Positions 7,028 through 60,005 of a stretch of 64,000 nucleotides of DNA are shown in pieces (position 1 is the stretch's first letter; the number at the start of each line of letters is the position of its first letter). Made by a program: the position numbers and the translations under genes. Source of the DNA: Miscanthus floridulus (Eukaryota > Streptophyta > Magnoliopsida > Poales > Poaceae). The notes beneath the pieces are model-generated. The model saw only the letters and a list, made by a program, of their open reading frames with translations. It was not told the DNA's origin and did not search any database. The stretch spans positions 69,234,485 through 69,298,484 of the forward strand of contig NC_089581.1 in NCBI RefSeq assembly GCF_019320115.1. The letters are read 5' to 3'.

Positions 7028-8795
7028 ATCAACTCTTACAATTGAGTCTTCAACTCGGCTAATTCCTTAGGAGGCATCCTATAAGCTCTCCGAGAGATCG
7101 GAGTTGTTCTAGGCTTTAACTCTATGTTAAACTAAACATCCCTACCTGGTGGTAGACCGGGTAAATCCTTAGGAAAAATATCAGGGAATTCACAAACTAC
7201 CGGGATATCTCTAATCTCCTTAACAAAAGTTGCACAAACTCTTTCCACTAATCTCCTTAAGGTTGGAAGTTGGATAAGAAGCTGAGAATTACTATCAGGC
7301 AAACTCACCCTTAATGTCCTATGCAAAGCATCTATAACAGCCTTATGCTGATACATCCAATTCATTCCCAAGATCACATCTATATCTTGATCCTTGAGAA
7401 TAATCATGGTAGTGGGAAATATATGCTCACCCAAGTTTATGGGTACCTGGTATACCATTTCCTTAGTACACAGACGTCCCCTGGGCGACTATATAAAGAA
7501 ACTTTGCTTTGTTTCCCCAATTGGAATTGCATGCTTTACGACAAAGGTTCTATTGATGAATGAATGAGATGCACCAGAATAAAAAAGCATAACAACAGGG
7601 TGATTGGCGACAGGAAACATACCCATCATCACTGGCTCCCCTTCCAGAATTTCTCCAGCTTGAATATAGAACACCCGTCCTATCTTCCTTTCATCTTTGC
7701 CCTTCTAAGCATTCTGATTGTGGTTCTTGTTCTGTGCTTGACCCTGTTGTTGATTAGCAGGGGCCTTCTGATAATTTTGATTAGCCTGCTTGGGATATGG
7801 ACATTCCCTGGAGAAATGACTGGTCCTTCCACAATTGTAACATGGATAATTGTGTCCCTGGGATGTTGGGGCATTGCCACCAGGAGCATTTGTCTATTAG
7901 GAATTTGGGTAGGTTATAGCAGGATGGACATTTGACTATTGCCTAGCTTGGGACTGTGGCGGACGATAAGGAGGACGATAATGGTTGACTGGATGATATA
8001 TTATCTTTTGCCTCTTTTGATTTCCACCAAAAGATCCAGACGGCACACTCTTCTTTTTCTTGATCTCCTTATGCTGCCGATACTTTTCCTCAGAAGCAAT
8101 TGCAATATTCACTGCCTCATGATAAGTAACATTGGCACATGCAGTCATCATTGTCTATAATTTGGTATTCAGTCCTCTCATGAACCATTTCTTTTTCTTG
8201 GCATCTGTATTGACATGTTCAGATGCATACTTTGATAGGTGATTGAATCTACCCACATATTGCATAACCGTTTGATCACCTTGCTTCAAAGCAAGGAACT
8301 CATCCAGCTTCATGGCCATCACCCCTTCTAGAATATAATAAGCTCTGAAGGCAGTACAGAACTCAGCCCAAGTTATTGGAATGCCAGCTAGTTGCATAGC
8401 CACTAGATTTGCCCACCAGGCACCTACTGCACCTCTAAGTTGCTGGGCAGCAAACATAGGTTTCTGCATCTCCGTGCATGGAATAAGATCAAATTTCTGC
8501 TGCATGGTCCGAAGCCAATCATCAGCCTCTAGTGGTTCATCTGCCTTAGTGAACACTAGGGGTCTTGTATCTGTAAAATCAACATATGTAGCCTCCTGCC
8601 TGTTATGATTGCAGCCACAGTTTCCTTGCACCATATTCTGATTACTCTAAGCTATCTCTCGAAGCAATCGAACATTTTCTACGGTCACATGGACCAGTGC
8701 TGCTATAGCATCAGCTAAAGTTGGCGGAACTGGTGGTGGATCGGGAACACCACCCTCTTCATGCGAAGAACCAGCGAAGCACGAGTACGAGGCAT
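7028..8795 (-). pseudogene. Element A gag-protease-RT start, degenerate
   Basis: A start ATG at 8795 directly follows TTATGAACAG. After an early frameshift near 8770, one frame (codons ending at positions divisible by 3) stays readable to 7028. It has a gag core with GAVGAWWANL, the CCHC knuckle CYNCGRTSHFSREC near 7800-7840, protease with LFYSGASHSFI near 7570-7600 (the usual catalytic Asp is Tyr here), DVILGMNW near 7350, and the pol entry DLPGLPPGRDV then RMPPKELAELK at 7060-7030. About seven in-frame TAG/TAA stops are each one transition from Gln codons. The frame ends abruptly at 7028, at the insertion of element B. Confidence 0.85.
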
Positions 8796-8967
8796 CTGTT
8801 CATAACAAACCAAACTTTACTCACAAGCCTTTATTGAGATATAAAAGAGCTCACTACAAGCACATTACATTGGGTTTACTTATTTAAGCACAAGCCTGCA
8901 CCTAAACAAGACTACTTAACATAACTAGATCTCCTATTTTACAACTCTACTCTTCTCCTCGACCACA

Positions 8968-9537
8968 TCAAGCCTCGTGATCGGTATCCATTCTGGAAAC
9001 ATTTCTGCCTTCATTATCACTTTCATCAACCATCACTACTTCTTCTAGATCTTCTTCTTCTTCCTCTTCAAGTTCATCATCATCAGCAATGATGACACTA
9101 GGATCCATTGCATCAGCTTGAGGTTCATGATTTGGATCTAGGAGGTTGCTCAGCCTATGGACTTCTTCATGCAAAGTAGTATTATGTTCTTCTAAATCTT
9201 CTACATAAAATTCTAGCTCATGCGCTCTAGCTCTAGCTACATCTTCCCTATGCCAAGCCTCATTTCTCCCTTCCACCATATGAACTAACATACGCTCACA
9301 GTTCTTATGAGCGGTGGTGTTACACTTCAATTGCTCCTTTAACTTGCCCAGCCAGATGGTGTCCAAGGCTCTATCCCTAGTAGCCTGTGCTAACTTTGTT
9401 GAAAGCCTCTGTATCTCTACCTGGGGATCAGGCCTAGAGCTGCTACTGCTAGCACCATCATTTCTAGGGGCAAGCTGGTGATGAGGAACTCCTTTAGGCC
9501 CAACAGACTTATGGGGCGTTACCTTGGTGCGAGCCAT
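8968..9537 (-). CDS. ORF0 of element A: histone H3 tail-like N-terminus, coiled coil, acidic C-terminus (189 aa)
   Basis: This is an intact 189-codon frame on the minus strand, between the primer binding site and gag. The start MARTKVTPHKSVG matches the histone H3 tail at A1-R2-T3-K4, T6, K9-S10 and G12. A QLA triplet follows, shifted one place from H3 Q19-L20-A21. A Ser-rich linker (about residues 29-34), a Leu/Glu-rich helical region (about 42-130, with CERMLVHMVEGRNEAWH) and an acidic run (ELEEEEEEDLEE) follow. The initiator Met precedes Ala, so it would normally be removed, exposing ARTK as in H3. The upstream sequence TTGCTTCCTACAG, one base before the ATG, resembles a 3' splice site. 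Element C has a 194-aa homologue. It is the only stop-free gene of element A in view. Function is unknown; mimicry is my inference. Confidence 0.8.
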   Translation of the reverse strand: MARTKVTPHKSVGPKGVPHHQLAPRNDGASSSSSRPDPQVEIQRLSTKLAQATRDRALDTIWLGKLKEQLKCNTTAHKNCERMLVHMVEGRNEAWHREDVARARAHELEFYVEDLEEHNTTLHEEVHRLSNLLDPNHEPQADAMDPSVIIADDDELEEEEEEDLEEVVMVDESDNEGRNVSRMDTDHEA

Positions 9538-9540
9538 ACT

Positions 9541-9900
9541 GTAGGAAGCAAAATTAATCCAATTAAGACCATCAGATCAAAATCTAAAGAGCAGCTAGGA
9601 TGGATTACATAACTCAACCCAAACTCACTACCCAACCTAGACTCAGGGTGAAGGAAGTAACAAGTGAATTAATCATGATGCATGAATCATTCTTATGAAC
9701 AAAAACATCAAAGCTTATAAGGTACATAACCATAGTTATTTTTATATAGGGCATAATAAGATTACTTTTTAATCAATTAAGGAATGGTGAGAATGAAATA
9801 AGATAAGCCAGAAGCAATTTGGACCAAATTAACAAGTTATATCTATTTGTCCCAAATCATTTTGAAGTTTTTGTAAAACAATACAACAAAGACTTTGTAA
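9541..9900 (-). other. Leader of element A between primer binding site and ORF0
   Basis: This is A/T-rich non-coding leader. On the minus strand it ends in the pyrimidine-rich TTTTGCTTCCTACAG just before ORF0. I see no convincing GTAAGT donor in it, so a donor for splicing to ORF0 would have to be elsewhere, e.g. in the LTR. Confidence 0.5.
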
Positions 9901-16135: not shown

Positions 16136-16670
16136 TCAAAGAGAATAAGTTACCAGCAAAAAAACAAGAAGCCACATGAGTTGTTCACAGAAGCAAGAAT
16201 TACATTCTAGTAGGAGACAAGCTATACAGAAGAGCCACATCATCAGGAGTACTCCTAAAATGTGTCTCATTTGAAGAAGGCAAACAAATCTTAGACGAAA
16301 TACACTCAGGCTGCTATGGAAATCATGCCGCTTCAAGAACACTAGTCGGCAAAGCATTTCGCACTGGTTTCTACTAGCCAACCGCTTTGAAAGATGCAGA
16401 AGAACTCGTTAGAAGATGCAAAAGTTGTCAGATGTTCGCAAGATAGGCTCATGTGCCAGCCCACAACCTCATCTGCATCCCACCCGCTTGGCCTTTCTCC
16501 TACTGGGGGCTGGATCAAGTAGGACCTCTCAAGAAAGCAAAGGGCGGTTTCGAGTACATCTTTGTAGCAATTTACAAGTTCACCAAGTGGATCGAATACA
16601 AACCACTTGCAAAATACAGCATAGCCAAAGCAGTCAAGTTCATCCAAGACATTATGCACCGCTTCGACAT
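16136..16670 (+). pseudogene. Element G integrase, N-terminal part (interrupted by element C)
   Basis: The zinc-binding module is visible (HSGCYGNHAASRTLVG to RRCKSCQMF, about 16300-16440). The catalytic core start WGLDQVGPLKKAKGG is near 16508-16550. The frame is in register with the upstream pol. It breaks off at HRFD (16660-16668), where the 5' LTR of element C begins at 16671. The continuation is at 32014 (MPNRIITDLGSPF). Confidence 0.9.
16666..16670 (+). repeat. Target-site duplication of element C, left copy (GACAT)
   Basis: GACAT is repeated at 32014-32018. Removing C and one copy restores the local order of integrase codons (HRFD followed by MPNR). Confidence 0.97.
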
Positions 16671-17439
16671 TGTAACACCCTATGTGTTTGGCTTCTACAA
16701 AAGTGCATTTCATTTCATAAACATATGCATCATCTATGTCATCATGCCATTGTCACTGAAACATACATATGCAACATTCGCAAATTCTGTTTGTTTCATA
16801 CTTGATTGCTTATGAATGGTAGTAGTGCAACATGTGAATGCAACATGAGTTTCTTATACCTTGAAACATGGCAACATGGTAGGAATGTGGCAAGTTAAGC
16901 TTGCAACAAAAGTAATGAAACATGTGAAACATGGAATTGCAACAATTGAGTGAATTGATTGTTTTATGCTTCATCACATGTGATCATTAGAAATTGGTAT
17001 AACAATTGTGTAAAGTGGTTGATCATGGTCTAATACACCTTAACTACACTTAGGGTAATTGTTGGAACATTGTTCATATGGATCAAAATGACAAAAATGC
17101 CCTCAAGAGGAGGTTTGACTTGAATTGACCCTTAGAGTGCCACTGTTTGACTGATTCCAAAGACCAACTTAGAGACCTTGCATGGCTGTGCACTCTTTAC
17201 CAAAGTTGTATCTAATTTATCAAGGAACAAAAGTTGTTTTATGACCAACTCATGAAAATGTGTGGAACATGGTCAAACAAGGCCCACAAGTCAAATTTCC
17301 CTGCTGATTTCATACTTAGAATTTTTCTAAGTCCTTAAGTTGAGTTACAGTTTTGTGTACCAATGTTTGGAGACTAGACCATGAACCAGATCGCCATCGT
17401 TTGGGAGTTACGGATCATCGAATTCGCTCTGTCAGTCAT

Positions 17440-18245
17440 CGTCGTTGATCTCTGAATCGCAATTTTCAGAAAACGGTCAGAGTTTGCCGTGGCCGACCGG
17501 CGTAGGAGCTGCTCGCCGCATGGCGTGCATGCTCTGCCGAAGTCTCCATGTCACGCGTCCGAGCTCTAGAAGAAGGCCAGTGCCTGCCCGACGCACTCAC
17601 CTGCCCCATTGCCTTTCTTTCGTCTCCACCGCGCGCAGCGCCAAGCCATAGTAGCTTCTCTAGTTCCGACCAAGCGTCGCCGTCGCCTTGCGCGCTCGCC
17701 ACTGCAAAAACGCGTTGCCCAGTTCGTCAACAGCTTCGCCATGATCTCCTCTACCACCTCCACCTTTCAGCCGAGGCGATTGAGGCTGGGCAAGGGCGTA
17801 ATCGCCAGTTCTTCCACCGCTGCCATGGCGGGACCTCGCCGGAATTGGCGCTAGATGTTGTGAACGCTACTGATGCTCGTAGGGACACCCAACAGGGCCG
17901 TGACGCAGTAGCCTCGCCAGAGCCGGCCAAGCCATGGCCGTGCACCGCCATGGCCGTCACCACCCCCGCTAGCCGCGGCAATAGCTTCAATTGAGGGCAC
18001 CACTAGATGCGCACGGGTGAGGTGGACACCGTAGCACTGCTGGACTCGCCAGAGATGCCACCGGTGATGAGTTGCGCCGCCGTCCGTTCTTCCTCCCCTG
18101 CCTGTGTCACTATCACGCGGGTCCCCTTTGTTAGTCGCTGCTACAGAGGCGGGAGACAGCGTGGGCCGCACCGAGTGCTGGGCCGCGCTGGCGTTCGCTT
18201 GCGCATGCACGGTGGGCCGCCGTGTCCTTCAGGCCGGCCCAGTAG
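17440..18245 (+). other. GC-rich block in the 5' LTR of element C
   Basis: The block is strongly GC-rich and Arg/Pro/Ala/Ser-coding in several frames. The corresponding 3' LTR block (28190-29070) has a good-context ATG (TTCACCATGGCC, ATG at 28252). One frame from it is long. Several stops in that frame in one LTR are CAG in the other, so the ancestral frame was longer than either copy. It may be a first coding exon or GC-rich 5' UTR/promoter. The translation resembles nothing I recognise. Confidence 0.45.
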
Positions 18246-19542
18246 TAGAGTTAGGATTCAAATTCGTTTTTGTTTTATTCTTTTCACAGATTGGTGTATA
18301 GATTCAAAAATATGTATCTCCTAGTTGGTAGATTCAAATGTTGTGGTTCCAATTTTGCTGAGTTCATGATAATGTCTAGTATTTATTAAAAATATAATTT
18401 ATGCTATGTTCTGTTATGAAAAATGGAGTTGCTAATTATCTCTTTTAATCATGAAAGAAATAGGGGTAATTATATCTTTTTTTATGTAGCTCCAAATGGC
18501 ATGAAATTTTTATGGTATACTGCTCATCTCATGAATAGCTTGTAGTTAAATTTTCATATATTGTGGACACTGTATATAGGAGATAGAAAATTCTCTTGTT
18601 TGCATGGGTGGATCTTGTGTGAATTTTCATAAATTTTCTATAGTAAAATTTGGTGAGTGCTGTTTTTATGCTAGAATGATGCTAGGAAAAATTAGAAATC
18701 TGTTGCTTGACACTTTTCAATAGGGTTTCCTAATTATGCTAAAAATAGACATGCCACCTGTTATTTTGGATACAGCAAGTTCTGCTTGCCCAATGGCTTT
18801 GAAATTTTTATGGTAGTCTATGTGAAGCATGAGATAGCTACTGTAATTTTTGTAGATTTTTCTAAACATTTTTACTATATATTGCTTTAATCACCTAATT
18901 AACTAAATAAATTAGAAAAGGATATTAAATAATTTATTTAGAAGTTGGCACTATACTTTCTAATGTTCCTCTGGTATGCACAACAAGTTTGTAAACTTGG
19001 TTTGGTCCAATTATGCTTTTGCATCATCACTAAATATTTAATTTAGTAACCCTGTCATTTCTGGACAGATTCTAGGTTTACTGGAATTCGATTGGTTAAC
19101 ATAAGAATCATGCTTTGATGTTTACAAATGATTTGTAGAGAATTTCATAAGCTTTCCAGAATGTCCTCTTGCAAGTCAATTGAATTTATAGAACTCTGGT
19201 TATGATTGAATTAAGGAACTACCCGGGTGCATATGAAACTTTAACTGTTGTTTTAAGTATGCCTTTACTATTTCTAAGTTTGTGGTAATGTTCCTAGGTG
19301 TTAGGCTTTTAACTGAAGATGAGCATCTTTATCTTAGGTTATGCAAGTTAGGTAAGTTGATCTTGTTCTTCAAGTTAAGTTAGATACATGTTTTAAAGTG
19401 ATTTGAATAGAGCTATTCTTAATCGGTAAACGAGTGTCCAGTGATGTTTTCGTTAAACATTTACTGTGATTCATTCATCATGAGCAACATGTCATTCCTT
19501 ATGCATCCATGATATTTATCTTGTGCATCGGTATGCAAATAG

Positions 19543-19695
19543 GTGTACCGGAAGGTGTGACACTGCTGGAATTCGAGGAACCGAGCGAGCAGCAGCAGCC
19601 GACACCAGAGATTTAGGAGGTGCAGCCTTCAGGAGAAGTGCTAGACGAGGTCGCCGTTGAGTGCCCGGATCACCGTCCGTGCAACTTTGTGAAAG
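19543..19695 (+). other. Exon-like block alpha in the 5' LTR of element C
   Basis: It is 153 bases, bounded by ATGCAAATAG on the left and GAAAG|GCAAGCCCCGG on the right. Read in phase 1 it is acidic and ends in FVK, with GKPR across the donor. In this copy one Gln codon is TAG; the 3' LTR copy has CAG. A GC-AG intron of 1070 bases would join it in frame to block beta at 20766. Confidence 0.5.
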
Positions 19696-20765
19696 GCAAG
19701 CCCCGGAGCATATTAAGCCTCCTAATTTTCGAAATGCAGTTATAGTATTATTGTTACATATATATATTGTTGCATTAAGTTTAGGTGTTGGATGCAAACA
19801 CTTGCTGCATTAGTTATCCAATCCTTATCCAGATATTGATACCCTGAATCCTATGTAGCTCAGGCTTGTGTAGTGCTTAGCCCTACTTAAACACGGTAGA
19901 AGTCAGGTGATTTCCTATCACCTGTGAGATATAGGAAGATACATATGGCATGGTTGGCTATATTTGCTATCGTGGAAAAGAACTAGTCTTAATTTGAAAT
20001 GAAGACCGGACGGAGGCTTGCCGGTTTGCAGTGACTCCGTCTGTGTCGCTTAAGGACTAAATCTTAGAGCCTTTCCTGTTCATGTTGAATGCATGCCTCT
20101 CTCTTAGTTGGCCATGTCTGAAGACCGACCGCGAAGCCGAGTAGCTCACCTCAGGCCGGGAGTCGATAAGTATAAAGTGCGCCTCGGAAGGGAGCCGTAG
20201 GCGTGAGTCCAAGGGTAGGTAATTTAAAAGTTCTGATCGTCCTAGCAGAAGGGTAATCCCTAAGAGTGCTGGCGCTGATTGAACCCGCGAATTTGGTTCC
20301 TGAGTTGTCCCAAAGGTGACCCACGGCTACCCTTGCTAAGTATGCCAGGGTGAGAGTTAGGAATACCCCCTCAGCTGAGTTGTAATTCGATTCGAGTCGC
20401 CATCTCTCCTGGTTAGTGAGAACTTGACGGGCTTATCTCCAAAGTAGATACACTAAATAACATAATGGTTCAGAAATGATGATATGATGATGACAGCCTT
20501 ATTATACCTGCTATGGTTAATATTGTTTGCTCCTAATAAGTGAGTGCTCTAGTACAGGTGCAAATCTAGTGGACATGTAAATGATGATAACTTGATGCAA
20601 AGTTTAAATTGGTTACTATATTCATAAGCTCTTTTATGCAACTGTGTCTAGCTAGCCCACCTCATAAGCCTTGCATGACCCTTGGTGTCTTTTATTTCTG
20701 GTTTTGGCGGGTAAGTCTAGCTGAGTACCTTCTCGTACTCAGGGTTTATCTCCCACCTGTTGCAG

Positions 20766-20827
20766 ATGACCAGTTCTACTTTGGTTGCTGCAAGTATTGC
20801 CTTCTCCCGGCTGGGGATGAAGACTAG
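20766..20827 (+). other. Exon-like block beta in the 5' LTR of element C
   Basis: It follows the conserved tract CTCAGGGTTTATCTCCC, then ACCTGTTGCAG. The phase-1 reading is DDQFYFGCCKYC, then LLPAGDED, then TAG at 20825-20827. It is homologous to 10284-10354 (minus) in element A. Splicing is predicted only. Confidence 0.5.
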
Positions 20828-21196
20828 ACCATTGGGCATGGTCTCTACTAGTTCTCGTATTTGAAGATGCTTTTGTGGGACATGACTGAGGTCTGGCAAT
20901 GTATTTGAAACTATGAAGTTATGTACTAAACTATGTTGCTTCCGTGAACTTGACTTGGTTTGTAATATTTTATTTGAACTCTGATGGATGTAATCCGGAT
21001 GCTACTTGTGAAATGTTGTAACGAATGATGTGTTGTGTTGAATCACTATGGTCTTGGTTTGTATGTCGAGAGTTGGTTAAAATCCTTCGAGATTTCTGGA
21101 CTACCGGGATTATGGGAGCTTAAGTACAGGAATTTGATCACTTCTGTGATTGTTTTTGTACTTATGTTCTTATGATTTGGTCGGTTCTGTTATAGC

Positions 21197-21208
21197 TGGT
21201 ATCAGAGC
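21197..21208 (+). promoter_or_regulatory. Primer binding site of element C (initiator tRNA-Met)
   Basis: TGGTATCAGAGC lies two bases after the 5' LTR end. It is the exact plant initiator-tRNA(Met) 3' complement used by many chromoviruses and copia elements. Confidence 0.95.
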
Positions 21209-21950
21209 AAGATTCGACACTAAACATGTCATTTGTGTATTTAAAACAAAAGTAATTGTGAAAATCCTAAATTAAATACTAAGTATTGCCAGTGGTCATA
21301 TCCCTTATGCCCAAATAAGGACTCTTAGGTGGCTTATTAAAGTACTAACTTGGGGGTTCCTGCTTGTTTCTGTTTCGTTGTCCATATAGCGTGCTATTGT
21401 ATGGATGCCATCCGCTTGGGTGGTAATGTATGGATCCAAATACCTCTATGCTCTAGTAAGTGGAGAGATGTGAGAGCATGACCGTCCAACCATCGGTCTA
21501 GGGGAGAGTAGTTGTGGTTGCTCGCATGCTTACATGTTCGATCATGTATCTATGAGAGTACTTAAATGTGGGTATCTCTGTGGGGTAGCTGTGATACTAG
21601 AATATATACTTCGAGGGATGTATGTATGAAAGTATTTAGTTTACTGCTTACTTTACATGCCTTTTTGGGAAATTATTGGGCTGAAATGAAATTTTCTGCA
21701 GGTACACTAACAACGTATCGTTGTAGATCGACTAGATACCGTATATGAGAGAACGTATGTATGCCACCGTATATTCACTAGCCTTTAAATTTTTCTAGGT
21801 TTGTGAGGACGTACGGATCGTGCATGCATCATGTTCAAGCATACATGGCATTTCTTGCATTACTCCCTCCTTTAAAATTGATGGTCTCGACTAATTAAAT
21901 TTCATATCCCTTAAATGATTCTCCCCTTACGTTGCAACTTTTTGCTACAG
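21209..21950 (+). other. Leader of element C with candidate splice sites
   Basis: This is non-coding leader. A donor-like CTAGTAAGTG occurs with GTAAGT at 21456-21461. The leader ends in the pyrimidine-rich CAACTTTTTGCTACAG, immediately before the ATG of ORF0. A spliced leader feeding ORF0 or gag is plausible but untested. Confidence 0.5.
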
Positions 21951-22535
21951 ATGGCGCGCACGAAACTCACTGCTCGCAAGTCCGCTGGAGGTAGGGCGCC
22001 TCATCACTGGTTAGCTCCTCGTGAGCCCCATCCTGAGCCTACTAAGGTGGAAAGGCTGAGGGCAGAGCTGGCTCGGGTGACTGCTGAGAGGAATGTGGCT
22101 CAGCATTGTTTGGAGCAAGTAACATAGGAATGGGATCAAGAGACCCTGGAGGTTCAGAGGTTGACAGTTGCTCACCGCAACTATGAACGTATGTTGATTC
22201 ACATGCTGAACCAATGGAATGAAGCCTGGCACGAAGAGAATGTGTTGAGAGCGCGACAGGTAGAACTAGAGCAGCAGTTGGCAGTTGCAGAAGAGTACAA
22301 TGACCATCTCCATGAGGAGGTTCACCTATTACATAATCAGCTTCACCCTCTCCTATCCCCTGATGATGAGGATGAGATGGGCTCTGGTGTCAACATGGCT
22401 GAAGGTGATGATGGCATTGAGGTCAATGGACCTGAGGACATTCCACCTGATGAGGAGGAAGATGAGGAGTTAGAGCCTGCTAGTGATGAAGATGGAGGAG
22501 AGATCTTCGACACTGACTCCGAGGACGATGCGTAG
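21951..22535 (+). pseudogene. ORF0 of element C: histone H3 tail-like N-terminus, coiled coil, acidic C-terminus
   Basis: It has 194 codons with one internal TAG (22125-22127). The start MARTKLTARKSAGGRAP matches the H3 tail at A1-R2-T3-K4, T6-A7-R8-K9-S10, G12-G13 and A15-P16. An LA pair falls at H3 positions 20-21. Together that is 15 of the first 23 H3 residues by eye. A helical region follows, with NYERMLIHMLNQWNEAWH and DHLHEEVHLLHNQL shared with ORF0 of element A. The last 60 residues are strongly Asp/Glu-rich. It starts directly at an ACAG|ATG junction. Removal of Met before Ala would expose ARTK. Histone mimicry is an inference; no function is demonstrated. Confidence 0.8.
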
Positions 22536-22950
22536 TTTAGCTTACTACTTAGCTAATGCGCTAGAGCTAGTCTTTTGTTGATCCTCATGCATGAACGAGT
22601 AACTTTGTAATAAGTTAATCGTTGGGATGTAATATCGGACCCTATGTTATTTTGGATGAAAGTTTAGAACCTCTATGGCTTGGTTGTAACCTATCAAACG
22701 CGTTATGCTCCACGTAAGTGAGCCTTTGACAATTTCTGTCTATGCGGTATATCGATCTCATTGCTGGTTAAGTTCATCGCATTAATGTGTCAATTGATGC
22801 GCTTGATGAGTTGTGTGATTGTGATGGATGATTGTGCCTCTGTTGATTATATAAATGCATTCTCTCCAATGGAATTAGTTTGGCATAATTATACAATTCA
22901 TCTACAAAAATTTCCACATCGTCAGTGCTCATTGGCTATACATTTTGCAG
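22536..22950 (+). other. Spacer between ORF0 and gag of element C
   Basis: No frame is supported. It holds a donor-like CACGTAAGTGAG (GTAAGT at 22714-22719) and ends in CTATACATTTTGCAG directly before the gag ATG, a second 3' splice-site-like junction. Confidence 0.5.
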
Positions 22951-24020
22951 ATGGCTTATAACCTTCGTCGCGGTCATAGCATGGGAGATGAGGAACAACC
23001 ACCTCCTCCACCGCCCACACCAGCTGAGCTAATGCAGATAGTTGTTGAAAGTCAGCGCATGCTAGCTGAGGCTATGCGCCATATGGCTAACCGCGAGGAT
23101 TGACATGTCCGCCAAGGACTCGAGCCGATCCAGTATAGCAGCTTTAAGGACTTCATGGACACAAAGCCTCCTATCTTTAGAGAGGCAGAAGAACCATTAC
23201 AAGCTGATGAATGGTTGAGCACGATAGAGCAAAGGTTTGGATTGCTCTGTTTGACAGAAGGTATGAAGGCCTCGTATGCAGGACACTAGCTCTAAGGCCC
23301 TGCAGGCATCTGGTGGACCCATCACATGACCACCTTCCCTGCAAATGTCAAGATAGTTTGGGACTAGTTCCAGACAGCTTTCCGAGGACATTTTATCCCA
23401 CCTGGTCTCATGGCCATTAAGCATACCAAGTTTATGAAGCTAACCCAAGGCAACAAGAGTCTTAATGAATACCTCTAGGCATTCAACAACCTGGCAAGGT
23501 ATGCTCCCGAGTTCATCGATACTGACGCCAAAAGAATAGCTAGTTTCAAGAGGGGACTTTCCCCTAAACTGATGAAGTCTATGGGCAACTGCAAGTGTGT
23601 CACCTTCAATGAGTTTATTAGTGACACCCTGACTCAGGAGAATAATGATAAGGTATATGCGGCTTCCAAGACCCATAAAAGAAACTTTGAGGCAGGCTCT
23701 TCTCAGTCTAAGGCACTAGTGGTATCCAAGACCCAGTATCATCCACCCAATGCTAATGTCCAGTACCGCCCATCTCAGAAGAAGAATCAAGCTAAAACTG
23801 GTTTCCTCAAGGGGTACACAATTTCCTTGCCAAAGAATACCTTTGGGCAGGGCAGCTCCAATGTCCCACCAGCTAACAGGTCGTGCTGGAACTGTAACCA
23901 GCCTAGTCACTGGGCTAATAAGTGTCCCTATCCTTCCAAGCAGAATGCTCAGGGAAATGTCCATCAGGGGCGTGTTCACTACACTACTATGGAGAAAATT
24001 CCTACTGGTGAAGTGGTCAC
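22951..24020 (+). pseudogene. Element C gag
   Basis: It starts with ATG at 22951, directly after TTTTGCAG. The N-terminus has a Pro run (QPPPPPPTPAEL). The gag core contains PLQADEWLSTIEQRFGL and GLMAIKHTKFMKLTQGNKSL. The CCHC zinc knuckle [14 protein letters not shown] is at 23884-23925. Gag would assemble the particle and bind element RNA. About five internal stops (e.g. TGA 23101, TAG and TAA near 23287-23295, TAG near 23476) are almost all one transition from Arg or Gln codons. No frameshift is present. Confidence 0.85.
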
Positions 24021-24560
24021 CGCTGGTAAGTTCCTTATTAATGATCACCCTGCAGTTGTGCTCTTTGATTCGGGTGCTTCGCATTCCTTTGTGAGTTCTA
24101 CTTTTGCATCTAAGCATAAGATGAATGTGATTACAATTGTCAAGGGTGGTTATTGTATTAGTGCTGTTGGAAATAATATCATGACTAACCAAGTAGTTAA
24201 GGATGTAAAGATTGAGATTGGGGATCGAGAGTTCCTTACGGATCTTGTAGTTCTGCCAGGGGTAGGAATCGATGTAATCCTAGGAATGAAGTGGATGAGC
24301 AGGAATGGATTGTTGATCGATACATCAACCCGTGTGGTAATGTTGAGGGATCCTGTGGATAAGAAGGGTTTTCTAGTGCAGTTACCTCATGATATCTCTA
24401 TCCACAATACAGCCAATGCTACCCTAGCCAAAGCCATTGAAGATATACCAGTTGTCTGTGAGTTTCTAGATGTCTTCCCTGATGACTTGCCTGGATTACC
24501 TTCAGACCGTGATGTAGAATTCAAGATAGAACTCATTCCGGGTACGACTCCTATTTCTTG
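24021..24560 (+). pseudogene. Element C protease
   Basis: It continues in the gag frame. Active site [11 protein letters not shown] has Asp-Ser-Gly from 24067. [10 protein letters not shown] lies near 24268-24297 and the pol entry [13 protein letters not shown] near 24484-24522. The aspartic protease would mature Gag-Pol. The domain is stop-free up to the TGA at 24559-24561, which is CGA in related elements (ISRRPYRM). Confidence 0.85.
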
Positions 24561-25790
24561 AAGGCCCTATAGAATGCCGCCCAATGAGTTGGCTAAGCTG
24601 AAGAGTCAGTTAAATGAGCTATTAAAGAAAGGTTTGATTCGGCCTAGTTCTTCTCCTTGGGGTTGTCCGGCTATCTTTGTGAAGAAGAAGGATGAGTCTC
24701 TACGCATGTGCGTGGATTATCGCCCCCTTAATGCTGTTACTATCAAGAACAAATACCCTCTTCCTCGCATCGATATTCTGTTTGATCAGCTCTCCAAAGC
24801 TAAGGTATTCTCCAAGATCGATTTGAGGTCTAGCTACCATCAGATCAAAATTTGTCCTGAAGATATACCAAAGACAGCTTTCTCTACTCGTTATGGCTTG
24901 TTCGAGTACCTTGTCATGTCCTTTGGGTTGACAAATGCTCCGGCACACTTTATGTACCTGATGAATTCAGTATTCATGCCGGAATTGGACAAGTTTGTCA
25001 TCATGTTCATTGATGATATCCTTGTATATTCTCAGAATGAAGAAGAACATGCTGAACATCTAAGAATTGTTTTAACTCGATTATGTGACAGCCAGCTTTA
25101 TGCTAAGTTCAGCAAGTGCGAATTTTGGTTGAACAAGATACCTTTTCTAGGTCATGTGTTATCTAGAGATGGAATTTTGGTTGACCCTACTAAGGTGCAA
25201 GAAGTCCTAGAGTGGAAGGCACCTACTACGGTCATAGAAGTCCAAAGTTTCCTGGGTTTGGCTAGCTACTATCGTCGCTTTATCTCGGATTTCTCAAAAA
25301 TTGCCAAGCCCATGACTTGACTACTTCAAAAGGATGAGAAGTTTGTGTGGACTCCGAAGTGTGAAGAAGCTTTCCACACTTTGCGGACCTTACTAACCTC
25401 TGCTCTTGTATTGGCACAACCTAACATCAAGAAGCCTTTTGATGTCTACTGTGATGCATGTGGCACTGGTTTGGGGTGTGTTCTTATGTAGGAGGGCTGA
25501 GTCATTGCTTATGCTTCACGCCAGCTTCGAAAACATGAGGTCAATTATCCTACCCATGACTTAGAGCTAGCTGCGGTTGTTCATGCCCTGAAGATTTGGA
25601 GACATTACTTGCTAGGTAATGTGTGCAACATCTATACAAACCATAAAAGTCTCAAGTACATCTTTACTCAACCCAAGTTGAACATGCGTCAATGACGATG
25701 GTTAGAGTTAATCAAAGACTACAACCTTCAAGTGCACTACCATCCTGGTAAGGCAAATGTGGTTGCTGATGCCTTAAGCAGAAAGGCCCA
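24561..25790 (+). pseudogene. Element C reverse transcriptase and RNase H
   Basis: RT motifs: [65 protein letters not shown] and the catalytic FIDD at 25006-25017, intact. RNase H has VYCDACGTGLGCVLM near 25446-25490, [14 protein letters not shown] and HYHPGKANVVADALSRK near 25735-25785. It would copy element RNA into cDNA in the particle. Stops at 25318, about 25489, 25498 and 25693 correspond to CGA or CAG codons in the family. Confidence 0.9.
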
Positions 25791-27327
25791 TTGCAATTCC
25801 TTAGTTAGTGAAGACTTTCATCTAGCACACCTCCTTCATCCGGTAGTACTCCACAATATCACCGTGGATTGCTCTCTTAGAAGTCGAATTATCGAACTCC
25901 AAAAGACTGACGTGGGTGTGTTTCACATCAAGCGGAAGATGAAAGAGCTGGAGACCAAGCACTTTAGAGTCGATGACAAAGGAATTCTCTGGTTTAATGA
26001 TAGGCTTGTAGTACCCAAAGACAAAGAACTTAGAAATCAGATTATGGCTGAAGCCCATTCTTCTAAATTGTCCATCCATCCTGGTAGCAGTAAAATATAT
26101 CAAGATCTCAAGCTGTATTATTGGTGGACCAAGATGAAGAAAGAAATCACAGCCTACATGGCAAGGTGTGATAACTGTTGCAGAGTCAAGGCTATTCACA
26201 TGAGGCCCGGATTATTGCAGCCACTCTCTATTCCTGGCTGGAAGTGGGAAGAAATTGTTATGGATTTCATTGTTGGATTACCCACTACCAAAAAGGGTTG
26301 TGATTCCATCTGGGTTATTATAGATCGTCTAACCAAATCCGCTCACTTTATTCCGGTCAAGTCTACCTATCACCATCACAATTATGCTGAGATTTATTTT
26401 CAACAAGTGGTACGTCTCCATGGTGTACCCAAATCCATTGTTTTAGATAGAGGACCACAATTCACGGCTCGCTTTTGGGAGTGCTTACATCAGAATCTTG
26501 GCACTCATCTAATCCGCAGTTCTGCCTATCATCCGCAAACATCAGGACAAACTGAGCGTGTTAATCAAATTTTTGAAGATATGCTGAGAGCTTGTCTTAT
26601 CTCTTGCAAAGGCTCTTGGGAGGAATGGTTGTCTCTCGCAGAATTCTCTTATAACAACAGTTATCAAGAGAGTATCAAAATGGCTCCTTTCGAAGCACTT
26701 TATGGCCGCAAGTGTAGAACTCCTTTGAACTGGGTGGAACCCGGAGAAAGAAGATTCTATGGTATTGATTTTGTAAAAGAAGCCGAAGAGCAAGTCCAAA
26801 CTATACAGAAGAATATGACTGCCGCTCAGGCTAGACAAAAGAGTTACGCTGATAAGAGAAGAAAACCTATTGAGTTTGAAGTAGGTGACCATGTTTATCT
26901 GAAGGTATCCCCTATGAAAGGAGTAAAATATTTTGGAATCAAAAGGAAGCTTGAGCCTCAATATGTTGGACCCTACCAAATTATCAAGAAAAGTGGAAGA
27001 GTAGCCTATAAACTCGATCTACCCCATGAAATAGGAGCTATATTCCCGGTATTCCATGTGTCTCAGCTGAAGAAGTGTCTTCGTATTCCCGAGGAAAGAA
27101 TAGCAACGAGGAGAATCGAATTGAAATCTGATCTTTCTTATGAGGAGAAGCCCATGCAGGTTCTGGATACTCAAGAAAGAGTGACTCATAGATGAGTAGT
27201 TAAGTTATACAAGGTAGTTTGGAGTAATCATAGTGATCAGGATGCAACCTAGGAGTAGGAAGATTATCTAAAGGAAAATTATCCGGCTTTCTATATTAAA
27301 TGGTATGCTTTCCAAATCTTGAGATGA
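25791..27327 (+). pseudogene. Element C integrase with C-terminal chromodomain
   Basis: The HHCC zinc module is SSKLSIHPGS to ARCDNCCRVKA (about 26065-26195). Catalytic residues are in MDFIVGLP (about 26260), VLDRGPQFTARFW (about 26440) and HPQTSGQTERVNQ (about 26530), and are intact. The GPY-type region (QYVGPYQIIKKSGRVAYKL) leads to a chromodomain of group II at about 27145-27300 (KPMQVLDTQERVTHR, then KLYKVVWSNHSDQDAT). Chromodomains of this class steer integration by binding chromatin marks. The chromodomain carries the stops TGA 27193 and two TAGs near 27250-27258. The frame ends at TGA 27325-27327. Confidence 0.9.
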
Positions 27328-27332
27328 GATTC

Positions 27333-27349
27333 TTCTAAGGGGGGAGGGC
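27333..27349 (+). promoter_or_regulatory. Polypurine tract of element C
   Basis: TAAGGGGGGAGGGC lies immediately before the 3' LTR and would prime plus-strand DNA synthesis. Confidence 0.85.
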
Positions 27350-30300
27350 TATAACACCCAAGGTGTTTGGCTTCTACAAAAGTGCATTTCATTTCATAAA
27401 CATATGCATCATCTATGTCATCATGCCATTGTCACTGAAACATACATATGCAACATTCGCAAATTCTGTTTGTTTCATACTTGATTGCTTATGAATGGTA
27501 GTAGTGCAACATGTGAATGCAACATGAGTTTCTTATACCTTGAAACATGGCAACATGGTAGGAATGTGGCAAGTTAAGCTTGCAACAAAAGTAATGAAAC
27601 ATGTGAAACATGGAATTGCAACAATTGAGTGAATTGATTGTTTTATGCTTCATCACATGTGATCATTAGAAATTGGTATAACAATTGTGTAAAGTGGTTG
27701 ATCATGGTCTAATACACCTTAACTACACTTAGGGTAATTGTTGGAACATTGTTCATATGGATCAAAATGACAAAAATGCCCTCAAGAGGAGGTTTGACTT
27801 GAATTGACCCTTAGAGTGCCACTATTTGACTGATTCCAAAGACCAACTTAAAGACCTTGCATGGCTGTGCACTCTTTACCAAAGTTGTATCTAATTTATC
27901 AAGGAACAAAAGTTGTTTTATGACCAACTCATGAAAATGTGTGGAACATGGTCAAACAAGGCCCACAAGTCAAATTTCCCTACTGATTTCATACTTAGAA
28001 TTTTTCTAAGTCCTTAAGTTGAGTTACAGTTTCATGTACCAATGTTTGGAGGCTTGTATCTCCCTAACCAGGCCGAACCAACTCGAGCTCCAATTGAAGA
28101 AGTTGTAGTACTCACTTAGGTCTTCAATTTTGTTAACTAGACCATGAACCAGATCGCCACCGTTTGGGAGTTACGGATCATCGAATTTGCTCTGTCAGTC
28201 ATCGTCGTTGATCTCTGAATCGCAATTTTCAGAAAACGGTCAGAGTTCACCATGGCCGACCAGCACAGGAGCTGCTCGCTGCATGGCGCACATGCTCTGC
28301 CAAAGTCTCCACGTCGCGCGTCCGAGCTCCAGAAGAAGGCCAGCGCCTGCCCGACGCACTCGCCTGCCCCATTGCCTTTCTTTCGTCTCCACCGCGCGCA
28401 GCGCCGAGCCGTAGCAGCTTCTCCAGTTCCAACCGAGCGTCACCGTCGCCTTGCGCGCTCGCCACTGCAAAAACGCATTGCCTAGTTCGTCAACAGCTTC
28501 GCCATGATCTCCTCTACCACCTCCACCTTTTAGCCGGGGCAATTGAGGCTGGGTAAGGGCGTAATCGCCAGTTCTTCCACCGCTGCCATGGTGGGACCTC
28601 GCCGGAGTTGGTGCTTCACGCGACCAACTGTCATCGCGACCTTCCCATCCTTTCTCTCCCTTGCGCTAGATGCTGTGAATGCTACTAATGCTCGTAGGGA
28701 CACCCAATAGGGCCATGACGCAGTAGCCTCGTCGGAGCCGGCCAAGCCATGGCCGTGCGCCGCCATGGCCATCACCACCCCCGCTAGCCGTGGCAATAGC
28801 TTCAATTGAGGGCACCACTAGATGCGCACGGGTGAGGTGAACACCGTAGCACCACTGGACTCGCCGGAGATGCCACCGGCGATGAGTTGCGCCACCATCC
28901 GTTCTTCCTCCCCTACCTGTGTCACTGTCGCGCGGGTCCCCTTTGTCAGTCGCTGCTGCAGAGGCGGGAGACAGCGTGGGCCACGCCGAGTGCTAGGCCG
29001 AGCTAGCATTCGCTTGCGCATGCGCGGTGGGCCGCCGTGTCCTTCGGGCCGACCCAGCAGTAGAGTTAGGATTCAAATTCGTTTTTGTTTTATTCTTTTC
29101 ACAGATTGGTGTATAGATTCAAAAATATGTATCTCCTAGTTGGTAGATTCAAATGATGTGGTTCCAATTTTGCTGAGTTCATGATAATATCTAGTATTTA
29201 TTAAAAATATAATTTATGCTATGTTCTGTTATGAAAAATGGAGTTGCTAATTATCTCTTTTAATCATGAAAGAAATAGGGGTAATTATATCTTTTTCTAT
29301 GTAGCTCCAAATGGCATGAAATTTTTATGGTGTAATGCTCATCTCATGAATAGCTTGTAGTTAAATTTTCATATATTTTGGACATTGTATGTAGGAGATA
29401 GAAAATTCTCTTGTTTGCATGGGTGGATCTTGTGTGAATTTTCATAATTTTTCTATAGTAAAATTTGGTGAGTGTTGTTTTTATGCTAGAATGATGCTAG
29501 AAAAAATTAGAAATCTATTGCTTGACACTTTTCAATAGGGTTTCCTAATTATGCTAAAAATAGACATGCCACCTGTTATTTTGGATACAACAAGTTCTGC
29601 TTGCCCAATGGCTTTGAAATTTTTATGGTAGTCTATGTGAAGCATGAGATAGCTACTGTAATTTTTGTAGATTTTTCTGAACAGTTTTACTATATATTGC
29701 TTTAATCACCTAATTAACTAAATAAATTAGAAAAGGATATTAAATAATTTATTTAGAAGTTGGCACTATACTTTCTAATGTTCCTCTGGTATGCACAACA
29801 AGTTGGTAAACTTGGTTTAGTCCAATTATGCTTTTGCATCATCACTAAATATTTAATTTAGTAACCCTGTCATTTCTGGACAGATTCTAGGTTTACTGGA
29901 ATTCGATTGGTTAACGTAAGAATCATGCTTTGATGTTTACAAATGATTTGTAGAGAATTTCATAAGCTTTCCAGAATGTCCTCTTGCAAGTCATTTGAAT
30001 TTATAGAACTCTGGTTATGATTAAATTAAGGAACTACCCGGGTGCATATAAAACTTTAACTGTTGTTTTAAGTATGCCTTTACTATTTCTAAGTTTGTGG
30101 TAATGTTCCTAGGTGTTAGGCCTTTAACTGAAGATGGGCATCTTTATCTTAGGTTATGCAAGTTAGGTAAGTTGATCTCGTTCTTCAAGTTAAGTTAGAT
30201 ACACGTTTTAAAGTGATTTGAATAGAGCTATTCTTAATCGGTAAACGAGTGTCCAGTGATGTTTTCGTTAAACATTTACTGTGATTCATTCATCATGAGC

Positions 30301-30357
30301 ATCATGTCATTCCTTATGCATCCATGATATTTATGTTGTGCATCGGCATGCAAATAG

Positions 30358-30510
30358 GTGTACCGGAAGGTGTGACACTGCTGGAATTCAAGGAACCGAG
30401 CGAGCAGCAGCAGCCGACACCAGAGATTCAGGAGGTGCAGCCTTCAGGAGAAGTGCCAGACGAGGTCGCCGTTGAGTGCCCGGATCACCGTCCATGCAAC
30501 TTTGTGAAAG
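30358..30510 (+). other. Exon-like block alpha in the 3' LTR of element C, open copy
   Basis: It is 153 bases (51 codons, phase 1 at both ends). The sequence is acidic and Pro/Gln-rich, e.g. LLEFKEPSEQQQPTPEIQEV. It is flanked by CAAATAG on the left and GAAAG|GCAAGCCCCGG on the right. The predicted intron is 30511-31584 (1074 bases, GC-AG). Confidence 0.55.
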
Positions 30511-31584
30511 GCAAGCCCCGGAGCATATTAAGCCTCCTAATTTTCGAAATGCAGTTATAGTATTATTGTTACATATATATATATATTGTTGCATTAAGTT
30601 TAGGTGTTGGATGCAAACACTTGCTGCATTAGTTATCCAATCCTTGTCCAGATATTGATACCCTGAATCCTATGTAGCTCAGGCTCATGTAGTGCTTAGC
30701 CCTGCTTAAACACGGTAGAAGTTAGGTGATTTCCTATCACCTGCGAGATATAGGAAGATACATATGGCACGGTTGGCTATATTTGCTATCGTGGAAAAGA
30801 ACCAGTCTTAATTTGAAATGAAGACCGGACAGAGGCTTGCCGGTTTGCAGTGACTCCGTCTATGTCGCTTAAGGACTGAATCTTGGAGCCTTTCCTGTTC
30901 ATGTTGAACGCATGCCTCTCTCTTAGTTGGTCGTGTCTGAAGACCGACCACGAAGCCGAGTAGCTCACCTCAGGCCGGGAGTCGATAAGTATAAAGTGCG
31001 CCTCGGAAGGGAGCCATAGGCGTGAGTCCAAGGGCAGGTGATTTAAAAGTCCTGATCGTCCTGGCAGAAGGGTAATCCCTGAGAGTGCTGGCGCTGATCG
31101 AACCTACGAATTTGGTTCCTGAGTTGTCCCAAAGGTGACCCACGGCTACCCTTGCTAAGTATGCCAGGGTGAGAGTTAGGAATACCCCCTCAGCTGAGTT
31201 GTAATTTGATTCGAGTCGCCGTCTCTCCCGGTTAGTGAGAACTTGACGGGCTTATCTCCAAAGTAGATACACTAAATAACATAATGGTTTAGAAATGATG
31301 ATATGATGATGACAGCCTTATTATACCTGCTATGGTTAATATTGTTTGCTCCTAATAAGTGAGTGCTCTAGTATAGGTGCAAATCTAGTGGACAGGTAAA
31401 TGATGATAACTTGATGCGAAGTTTAAATTGGTTACTATATTCATAAGCTCTTTTATGCAACTGTGTCCAGCTAGCCCACCTCATAAGCCTTGCATGACCT
31501 TTGGTGTCTTTTATTTCATGTTTTGGCAGGTAAGTCTAGCTGAGTACCTTCTCATACTCAGGGTTTATCTCCCACCTATTGCAG

Positions 31585-31646
31585 ATGACCAGTTCTACTT
31601 TGGTTGCTGCAAGTATTGCCTTCTCCCAGCTGGGGATGAAGACTAG
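31585..31646 (+). other. Exon-like block beta in the 3' LTR of element C
   Basis: Acceptor ACCTATTGCAG is followed by a phase-1 reading DDQFYFGCCKYC LLPAGDED and stop TAG at 31644-31646. It is identical in protein to the 5' LTR copy. Confidence 0.5.
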
Positions 31647-32013
31647 ACCATTGGGCATGGTCTCTACTAGTTCTCGTATCTAAAGATGCTTTTGTGGGAC
31701 ATGACTAAGGTCTGGCAATGTATTTGAAACTATGAAGTTATGTACTAAACTATGTTGCTTCCGTGAACTTGACTTGGTTTGTAATATTTTATTTGAACTC
31801 TGATGGATGTAATCCGGATGCTACTTGTGAAATGTTGTAACAAATGATGTGTTGTGTTGAATCACTATGGTCTTGGTTTGTATGTTGAGAGTTGGTTGAA
31901 ATCCTTCGAGATTTCCGGACTACTAGGATTATGGGAGCTTAAGTACAGGAATTTGATCACTTCTGTGATTGTTTTTGTACTTACGTTCTTATGATTGGGT
32001 TGGTTCTGTTATA

Positions 32014-32698
32014 GACATGCCCAATCGAATCATCACAGACTTGGGTTCTCCCTTCACAGCTACAAAATTCAAAAGTTGGGCACATGATTATGGTTTCAGC
32101 ATTGATTACGCATTAGTCGCACATCCAAAAGCCAACGGACAGGTAGAAAGGGCTAATGGACTCATACTGGCTGGATTGAAACCAAGACTGTATGAAGAAC
32201 TAGTAGACTATGGATCAAAATGGATTGAAGAATTACCCAAGGTCGTATGGGGGCTATGGACTCAAATAAGCAGAGCCACTGGATACTCACCTTTCTTTCT
32301 GGTGTATGGATCAGAAGCCGTACTACCCACAGACTTGATCTGGATGTCACCAAGGATAGAGCAATACGACGAAGGAGAAGCAGAACACACATGAAGATTA
32401 GAACTCGGCAGTACAGAAGAAGTCAGAGTAAACGCTACCCTACAATCAGCAAGATACCTCCAAGGACTAAGGCGCCACTACAACAAGAATACCTAGTCTC
32501 GATCATTACAAGTCGGAGACCTAGTACTAAGAAGAGTACAAAAAAACCGACGGACGCCACAAACTACTCAGTCCATGGGAAGGTCCTTTTATAGTCACAA
32601 AAGTCATCGGACCAGGCACATACAAGCTCATAACTAAAGACGGAAAAGAAGTCAACAATACATGACACATTAGTCAGCTACGAAGATTCTACGCATAA
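32014..32698 (+). pseudogene. Element G integrase, C-terminal part (continuation after element C)
   Basis: It resumes at the right TSD (GACAT, 32014-32018). MPNRIITDLGSPFTATKF carries the second catalytic Asp, and AHPKANGQVERANGLIL carries the catalytic Glu. GYSPFFLVYGSEAVLPTDL and the end QLRRFYA with stop 32696-32698 follow. A TGA at 32392-32394 and a one-base shift in an A run near 32531-32537 break the frame. No chromodomain is present, consistent with Tat. Confidence 0.9.
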
Positions 32699-32862
32699 AA
32701 ACAACTCAAGGGAAAATATGTATACAAGACACAAGAGATCAACGTTCATGATTAACAAAGATAGCGCTATGTATCATTGTAACACATCAATATTCATGAT
32801 CAATAAAGATGATTATCTCTCAACAAACATATGTCTCATGGCTCTCTCTGAGTTGTTTCTTA

Positions 32863-33522
32863 AATGCAAAATGGCTGAAAAGACGCCTGAGCATCCCGGC
32901 CAAGAGCAAAATAGCTGAAAAGACGCAGCCCACCGATGAGGGTAGCTAACAAGCTAACACCCGAAATAAAATGCAAAATGGCTGAAAATACGCTTGAGCA
33001 TCCCGGCCGAGAGCAAAATAGCTGAAAAGACGCTTGAGCCCGCCGATGAGGGTAGCTAACAAGCTAACACCCGAAATAAAATGCAAAATGGCTGAAAATA
33101 CGCCTGAGCATCCCGGCCGAAAGCAAAATAGCTAAAAAGACGCTTGAGCTCGCCGATGAGGGTAGCTAACAAGCTAACACCCGAAATAAAATGCAAATTG
33201 GCTAAAAATACGCCTGAGCATCCCGGCCGAGAGCAAAATAGCTGAAAAGATGCTTGAGCCCGCCGATGAGGGTAGCTAACAAGCTAAAACCCGAAATAAA
33301 AAGAAAAATGGCTGAAAAGACGCCTAAGCATCCCGGCCGAGAGCAAAATAGTTGAAAAGACGCTTGAGCCCACCGATGTGGGTAGCTAACAAGCTAACAC
33401 CCGAAATAAAATGCATAATGGCTGAAAAGACACCTGAGCATCCCAGCCGAGAGCAAAATAGCTAAAAAACGCTTGAGCCCGCCGATGAGGGTAGCTAACG
33501 AGCTAACACCCAAAAACAAAAA
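32863..33522 (+). repeat. 110-bp tandem array, six units, in element G
   Basis: The unit carries AATGGCTGAAAAGACGCCTG, AGCATCCCGGCCGAGAGC and GGTAGCTAACAAGCTAACAC. The AATGGCT anchor lies at 32871, 32978, 33088, 33198, 33308 and 33418, so the period is 110 bp (107 for the first). GCTGAAAAGACGC occurs twice in each unit. It lies just after the integrase stop. No conserved coding frame was found. Confidence 0.9.
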
Positions 33523-34005
33523 GCAAAACAACTAAAACTAAGCCTGGGCATAGACCAAAGCAATTTCAAGACAAGACCCTCCAGCTACTTGTCCCAAATA
33601 GCAAGAGGCTCGAGGGCTGCACTGGAGATACCCAAGAACACAAAGACCTACATATAACGAGTTGTTTACATGGCATAGAAGAAGGCCAGACAAGCACTCG
33701 ATAGATCAAGAAAGGTTGTCAGCACAAAGATCTATATATATAACGAGTTGTTTACATGGGACAGAAAAGTACTCGACAAATCAAGAAAGCTTGTCAAAAT
33801 AGCACGCAGAGTTGTTTACAAGGCAAAGACAAAAGCAAGACAAAGTACTCGGCAAGTCAAGTAACTCTGACCAATTAGGCAAATCATTCAAGGAATAAAC
33901 AAGGCATCAAAGGCATCCAGGTAGAGAAGACATCAACAAAAATCTTCATTCAAAAGAAGCATAATATCATATTACAAGGCATGGGCATAAAGGTCAAATA
34001 CATCA
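33523..34005 (+). repeat. Degenerate repeat zone of element G
   Basis: Two clear and one partial copy of a roughly 100-bp unit containing CGAGTTGTTTACATGG and ACTCG(A/G)(C/T)A(A/G)(A/G)TCAAG occur at about 33650-33860. A copy of AAGACCCTCCAGCTACTTG is shared with 38730 and 39003 further down. No gene is supported. Confidence 0.6.
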
Positions 34006-49965: not shown

Positions 49966-49967
49966 AG

Positions 49968-49981
49968 TGGTATCAGAGACA
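49968..49981 (+). promoter_or_regulatory. Primer binding site of element E (initiator tRNA-Met type)
   Basis: TGGTATCAGAGAC lies two bases after the 5' LTR. It matches the plant initiator-tRNA(Met) site over its first eleven bases. Confidence 0.9.
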
Positions 49982-50025
49982 TGGTCACTGTTTGATTGAA
50001 GGCTTAACAACCTCTGTGTCAAATT

Positions 50026-52113: not shown

Positions 52114-52127
52114 TCTTCTTTTGTAGG

Positions 52128-59864: not shown

Positions 59865-60005
59865 ATCATGAGTTGGTAGAGTTCGTGCCCGTAGACAAAC
59901 ATGATTACGAAGAGGTCATTGAGGAGTATGAGAAGGAGATCCTCATGTAGGAGGGAGCCCTAGAGCCTTTTGGTGCTGACTTTGCTGACCCACCGCCTAC
60001 CCAAG
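59865..60005 (+). other. Exon-like block alpha in the LTR of element D
   Basis: It is 141 bases (47 codons, phase 1 at both ends). The left flank is ATGCATGTAG and the right flank CCCAAG|GCAAGCCCCGG. The peptide includes YEEVIEEYEKEILM, then one TAG, then EGALEPFGADFADPPPTQ. The minus-strand element F encodes a close relative in which several differences are synonymous third-position changes. Confidence 0.5.

Follow-up and report, generated by a model that had tools for sequence, protein, structure and literature searches.

Gypsy-type retrotransposons of grasses with an extra open reading frame (ORF0) upstream of gag-pol have already been published, and the accessible passages of Gao et al. 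(2012; PMC3485330) describe the ORF0 of rice RIRE3, RIRE8 and Retrosat2 together with grass homologues, in elements whose long terminal repeats (LTRs) measure about 3 kb or longer. According to the same passages, ORF0 diverges faster than ORF1, was found in that paper only in grasses, shows a similarity of about 10% between Retrosat2 and Sorsat2, and was modelled as hydrolases, transferases or transporters; in Oryza brachyantha, FRetro3, which has an ORF0, is stated to have taken the place of the canonical centromeric retrotransposons. The words "histone" and "coiled" are absent from the main text of PMC3485330.

The window analysed here is a stretch of 64,000 nucleotides of Miscanthus floridulus DNA, in which two elements, B and C, have an ORF0 and resemble RIRE3, RIRE8 and Retrosat2, the ORF0s being likened by description. 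The LTR terminus TGTCACACCC, given for RIRE8 and Retrosat2 only in the accessible part of PMC3485330, does not occur in the window, whereas the LTR of element C starts with TGTAACACCC. Element C shares with the three rice elements a separate ORF between the 5' LTR and gag, and its LTRs of 4524 bases (5', positions 16671–21194, + strand) and 4664 bases (3', 27350–32013, + strand), delimited by self-comparison and by their ends, agree with the length of about 3 kb or more.

In elements B and C, ORF0 has an N-terminus that resembles the histone H3 tail. Animal viruses and some host factors are known to mimic histones; SNAG-domain factors bind LSD1, and influenza NS1 is a viral histone mimic. Both rely on a short peptide at a protein end that mimics the H3 tail and contacts a protein that binds this tail, as proposed below for ORF0, but they belong to animal hosts or viruses, have a shorter H3 likeness and are not products of plant retrotransposons. 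The nearest known transposon with H3 sequence that we met is the hAT element of Pyrenophora tritici-repentis with its H3L (PMC3538342, accessible passages), which is also a transposable element with an H3-like sequence; however, it is a fungal DNA transposon whose H3-like protein has the globular domain, whereas ORF0 has only the tail, joined to an unrelated helix. VANC of the Arabidopsis VANDAL elements (PMC5735166, PMC10398659) is a transposon-encoded anti-silencing protein, and anti-silencing is also one of two roles suggested below for ORF0, but the opening parts of the abstracts describe it as sequence-specific and do not mention histone mimicry. No description of an H3-tail-like retrotransposon ORF0 was found in the literature within reach, which excludes most subscription papers and bioRxiv preprints, and the available passages of PMC3538342, PMC10264360, PMC11288735 and PMC5469831 describe none.

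The ORF0-bearing elements of the window

Element C (16671–32013, + strand) is a decayed LTR retrotransposon of the Ty3/gypsy type with an ORF0, delimited by self-comparison, its LTR ends and a 5-bp target duplication, GACAT (16666–16670 and 32014–32018). A primer-binding-like sequence, TGGTATCAGAGC, stands at 21197, and ORF0 (21951–22535, + strand) sits between the LTR end at 21194 and the gag ATG at 22951. The gag and protease region (22951–24561, with an RVP_2 protease inside 23572–24561) has in-frame stops in gag, the reverse transcriptase (24574–25320) and the integrase with its SH3_Tf2-1 domain in Pfam (25732–27195) each lie in an open piece of their own, and the domains of the three enzymes, all on the + strand, are spread over separate pieces. 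The original prediction also gave this element an integrase chromodomain; a chromodomain-like stretch can be recognised by eye after the integrase (27196–27291, + strand), but it is a decayed remnant with in-frame stops at 27193, 27250 and 27256. Over 4520 aligned columns, the two LTRs differ by 140 transitions and 16 transversions (K2P 0.036), which at a rate of 1.3e-8 gives 1.4 million years. This copy of the element is dead, and its function must therefore be argued from the family. Past its 3' LTR lies a tandem array with a 110-base unit, measured from start to start (32817–33586).

The translated frame of the ORF0 of element C (ORF0-C) consists of an H3-like N-terminus, a helix-rich middle and an acidic end. 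The sequence bears out this frame, its start at 21951 and an N-terminus like that of H3, but the frame is not open over 194 codons as first read, because a TAG at codon 59 (22125–22127) interrupts it.

Element B is opposite in orientation to element C, and ORF0 stands before gag in this element too. Its ORF0 (ORF0-B; 8968–9537, - strand) is uninterrupted over 189 aa, has an ATG one base after CTACAG and opens with MARTKVTPHKSVGPKGVPHHQLAPR, i.e., with the same MARTK; it is 42% identical to ORF0-C over 163 aligned positions, and ORF0-B is the better of the two copies for experiments. In the translated frames, gag of element B (8155–8795, - strand) starts with MPRTRASLV at 8795, its ATG following GTTATGAACAG, and the open frame from 8634 to 8155 differs in frame from this start. 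The letters MPRTRAS are faintly like the start of ORF0, and the gag of element C (MAYNLRRG) is unlike it. A disordered tail, a long helix and an acidic end are predicted for ORF0 by the structure model of ORF0-B (mean pLDDT 73), in which residues 1–37 are unstructured, residues 38–133 form a single helix with pLDDT block means of 96–98 over residues 41–120, and the acidic end is without structure.

A tblastn search with 11 relatives detected no third ORF0 in the window. This includes a pol-like sequence at 43465–45977 with 65–71% DNA identity to element C, in which the same search detected no ORF0. The window further holds an element that is copia-like by eye (47993–58499), with direct repeats of about 2 kb that are 93% identical and with long open frames at 50026–55340, and an imperfect inverted repeat (59250–62343), the arms of which lie within 59250–60235 and 61344–62343 at 69–78% identity.

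The H3-like N-terminus and its translation start

The H3-tail-like module of ORF0-C spans 24 codons (21951–22022, + strand) and was delimited by phmmer, the family profile and residue counts. The N-terminus reads MARTKLTARKSAGGRAP, and its start, MARTKLTARKSAGGRAPHHWLAPR, equals histone H3 at 16 of 24 positions in a gap-free comparison with Met counted; the 15 of 23 identities first counted by eye were about right. The PDB set searched comprised 177635 distinct sequences, and the best match in it of the 58-aa piece of ORF0-C before the stop was H3 (phmmer, E=4.8e-4). ORF0-B alone gave zero PDB matches at E up to 10. A profile search against H3 had been proposed as a check, and H3 came out first in the PDB for the profile of the C family, built from 18 sequences (E=1.7e-5), for that of the B family, built from 15 (E=0.032, with an unrelated coiled-coil protein as third match at E=0.12) and for a profile of the N-termini of 11 lineages (E=2.1e-9), with ORF0 in register with the H3 N-terminus in the PDB alignments shown.

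Canonical H3 scores 43.2 bits against the N-terminal profile. When the columns of the profile were shuffled with Met kept first, the score was at most 7.0 bits against 38.5 for the real one (n=60), which means that the order of the residues matters. The 11 representatives are identical to the H3 tail at 12–17 of 24 residues, and lineages that were chosen by likeness to one relative, P0006, show H3 letters missing from P0006 itself, namely A7 in P0255, P0257, P0258, P0259 and P0260, Q5 in P0255 and T22 in P0259. Judged by these comparisons, the likeness of ORF0 to H3 is beyond chance. CENH3 was considered as the model instead of H3 and rejected, as two published CENH3 peptides of non-grass plants reached 8.9 and 6.6 bits where H3 reached 43.2. 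A known Pfam domain in ORF0 was likewise rejected, since the matches were weak and every one fell under the curated cut-off, and a histone fold is not indicated: the Pfam matches of the 10 queries (8 whole ORF0s and 2 pieces of ORF0-C) included no histone family, and the model of ORF0-B shows a single long helix.

An H3-like end depends on where translation begins. In element C, an upstream ATG at 21915 opens a 12-codon in-frame extension (21915–21950, + strand) that reads MILPLRCNFLLQ-MARTK and is present in 10 of the 18 aligned relatives, so that in the C family the H3-like tail would be buried by translation of unspliced RNA from this ATG. The extension ends in TTTTTGCTACAG, which resembles a 3' splice site and directly precedes the ATG of ORF0-C, and the gag ATG of the same element (22951) directly follows ATTTTGCAG. 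In ORF0-B there is no in-frame ATG between the previous stop and MARTK. In both elements, the start codons of ORF0 and of gag, four in all, have a CAG 0–1 base before them (21939–21950 and 22939–22950, + strand; 9538–9550 and 8796–8806, - strand); as background, [CT]AG stands at those two spacings before 75 and 64 of the 2813 ATGs of the window. We infer from this arrangement that the elements may use alternative 3' splice sites, of which one would serve ORF0 and the other gag. The leaders contain 27 upstream ATGs in element C (755 bases) and 11 in element B (395 bases), through which plain scanning would hardly reach ORF0. Around the acceptor-like site before ORF0, the leaders of the two elements showed no significant DNA similarity, 224 of 1000 shuffles reaching the score, and a search for donor motifs with a few strict patterns in 5300 (C) and 2500 (B) upstream bases gave one match, 2601 bases before the start of ORF0-C and inside the 5' LTR, which alone is unconvincing.

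Conservation of the module across the ORF0 family

Relatives of ORF0 were collected with three queries. The whole of ORF0-B found 300 proteins; among the 120 matches listed, 23 have the N-terminal module, 96 start inside the protein, and P0064 has unrelated letters upstream of a later part. The part of ORF0-C after the stop found 430 proteins, and with this query the search is incapable of selecting for the N-terminus; among the 120 matches listed, 18 have the module, 102 start inside the protein and none has a different N-terminus in the module's place. The gene calls of 38 of these 120 begin at an internal Val or Leu, which hides the true N-terminus, and relatives beginning inside the protein are in both searches (96 and 102 of the 120 listed) uninformative on this point. 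The third query, residues 1–42 of P0006 only, found 39 proteins from 40 candidates, including the very divergent ORF0s P0255 (MAHTRQTARKKTGPKGVPRHQLA), P0257 (MAPLKRTARKSTGPKGVPRHQLA), P0258 (MARTKITARKSTGPHGVPRHQLA) and P0259 (MARTKTTARKSTGPKGVPRHPMATR), all of which by eye have an acidic end and a helix-like middle as in ORF0-B and ORF0-C. On the evidence of these proteins, the H3-like N-terminus recurs in deeply diverged ORF0s.

Residues were counted in 262 sequences (260 from the database and the 2 of the window), 60 of which passed a filter for a complete module. Because this filter accepted only Lys or Arg at K9 and only Pro (or Ser) at P16, the 60/60 at these two positions is partly built in. 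The filter left out P0014 (Met at K9, Ala at P16) as well as P0250 and P0256, in which the first residues are absent. Among the 60 N-termini, A1 is kept in 57, R2 in 45, T3 in 53, K4 in 59, T6 in 57, R8 in 45, S10 in 51 and R17 in 39; K9 is Lys in all 60, where the filter allowed Arg as well, and the K14 position is K or R in 56. P0255 has Arg instead of K4, and the Q5 position is occupied by eight different residues. MARAK, with T3 changed to Ala, occurs in 4 of the 60, including P0005, the biggest cluster listed (254 members). Among the letters other than Arg, 13 of 15 at R2, 15 of 15 at R8 and 20 of 21 at R17 are compatible with decay of methylated CpG, as judged from protein letters with the codons unseen. 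Other departures from H3 are constant, with His for K18 in 59, Pro for T22 in 57 and Arg for K23 in 57 of the 60, so part of the conserved module is specific to ORF0. In the two motifs emphasised originally, ARTK and A7-R8-K9-S10, K4 is nearly invariant, but R2 (45/60) and T3 (53/60) are less so, and A7 has given way to Pro in 36 of the 60 N-termini and S10 to other residues in 9.

Free variation of the first 25 residues beside a conserved coiled coil had been named as the pattern that would speak against the prediction, and the opposite was found. Residues 1–25 exceed the rest of the protein in identity in 54 of the 55 lineage pairs formed by 11 representatives (mean 72% against 39%), with P0137–P0152 as the single exception (71% against 81%); 5 of the 11 representatives came from the N-terminal search, which biases this comparison. 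Eight pairs of C-type and B-type proteins from outside the N-terminal search (2 x 4 proteins) gave 58–71% for residues 1–25 against 38–45%, the B-type proteins among them having been found with the whole of ORF0-B, N-terminus included.

The DNA of the two copies in the window allows the same question to be asked of codons, and this comparison is limited to them because no ORF0 relatives were confirmed in the viral_contigs and genome_contigs DNA. Between ORF0-B and ORF0-C, pN is 0.22 over residues 1–25, 0.50 over 26–75, 0.29 over 76–135, 0.34 at the acidic end and, for everything after residue 25 taken together, 0.36; pS is near saturation in both parts (0.76 for residues 1–25, 0.82 for the rest). 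In these two copies the N-terminus is the least changed part of ORF0, but by a small margin over residues 76–135, the best-preserved stretch of the helix (0.22 against 0.29). Residues shared by the two proteins are written with different codons at 9 of 15 positions in residues 1–25 (Met excluded) and at 38 of 62 in the rest, which argues for selection on the protein, and not on the DNA or RNA, in both parts. At the level of sequence comparison, the presence of the H3-like module in diverged lineages and its constraint as protein are shown.

Candidate functions of the module

Plant retrotransposons are silenced via H3 tail marks and DNA methylation. Of the explanations considered, the most likely one, at about even odds, is that ORF0 mimics the H3 tail and engages proteins that bind this tail, perhaps to counter silencing. 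As a self-encoded ligand for H3-tail readers, which is how the original prediction saw it, ORF0 would be an accessory protein encoded by a lineage of grass-type gypsy retrotransposons, and its residues 1–23/25 would be a mimic of the H3 tail that most likely came from the captured 5' end of an H3 gene; a plant H3.3 gene with a 5'-UTR intron would be a possible donor, splice site included. We infer that translation would begin at the MARTK start, probably on spliced RNA, that removal of Met would expose the ARTK end, and that the long helix would oligomerise ORF0 and present several tails together, and the acidic end may touch basic chromatin proteins. The tails would then bind host proteins whose ligand is the N-terminus of H3, either PHD/ADD-type readers or LSD1-type demethylases. 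In this way ORF0 may weaken silencing of the element by acting as a decoy, or may form a bridge by which the element's particles reach chromatin. The freedom of Q5 beside the constancy of A1, K4 and T6 fits with the contacts made by readers of the ARTK end. LSD1-type enzymes use about 21 residues of H3, and the constraint up to residue 23 fits them, but it would also fit karyopherins. The full proposal, that a plant LTR-retrotransposon lineage encodes a selected H3-tail mimic, displayed in multiple copies on a coiled coil and competing for, or recruiting, host readers and demethylases to oppose silencing or direct integration, is tentative, and we consider it somewhat less likely than not.

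The fit with karyopherins leads to the main rival, in which the captured H3 fragment is retained to direct import into the nucleus. Karyopherins use the tail of H3 as a cargo signal, and a retrotransposon needs entry into the nucleus; in keeping with this, the basic residues are retained (K4 in 59, K9 in 60, K or R at K14 in 56 and R at K23 in 57 of 60) and the conservation extends to residue 23 with no stop at 10. However, a simple basic signal needs neither A1, T3 and T6 nor an exact position at the N-terminus, and all of these are conserved nearly as well as the lysines. We hold this explanation to be rather unlikely.

An N-terminus without structure that adjoins a long helix, as in the model of ORF0-B, may also suggest that ORF0 is a coiled-coil accessory protein with a basic arm for binding RNA or DNA, and that the H3 likeness of this arm is convergence on a basic disordered peptide. 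This is improbable, given that the order of the residues matters (7.0 bits after column shuffling against 38.5) and that H3 is the top match of the profiles among all the distinct PDB sequences. We give equally little credence to a reading centred on K9, in which host SUVH-type enzymes would methylate this lysine of the mimic and the element's integrase chromodomain would bind it and so gather integration complexes. Lys at K9 in all 60 filtered N-termini (P0014, with Met, lies outside the filter) and the chromodomain-like remnant seen by eye after the integrase of element C are consistent with it. Chromodomains favour a small A7, however, and the Pro found there in 36 of 60 and the replacement of S10 in 9 of 60 weaken this reading, and the chromodomain of element C, judged by eye, is decayed. 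That the module is a functionless relic of gene capture, conserved by common descent alone, would agree with the decay of element C but is hardly credible, because the module is still kept where synonymous differences between ORF0-B and ORF0-C are near saturation and it is more conserved than the rest of ORF0 in 54 of 55 pairs.

The present case is a long copy of the H3 tail in a protein that is repeated, diverged and under constraint and that belongs to apparent plant retrotransposons. If the H3-tail mimic proposed above is true, the unexplained ORF0 of these elements would gain a concrete function that can be tested quickly, and transposons would have a further route by which they engage the machinery that silences them.
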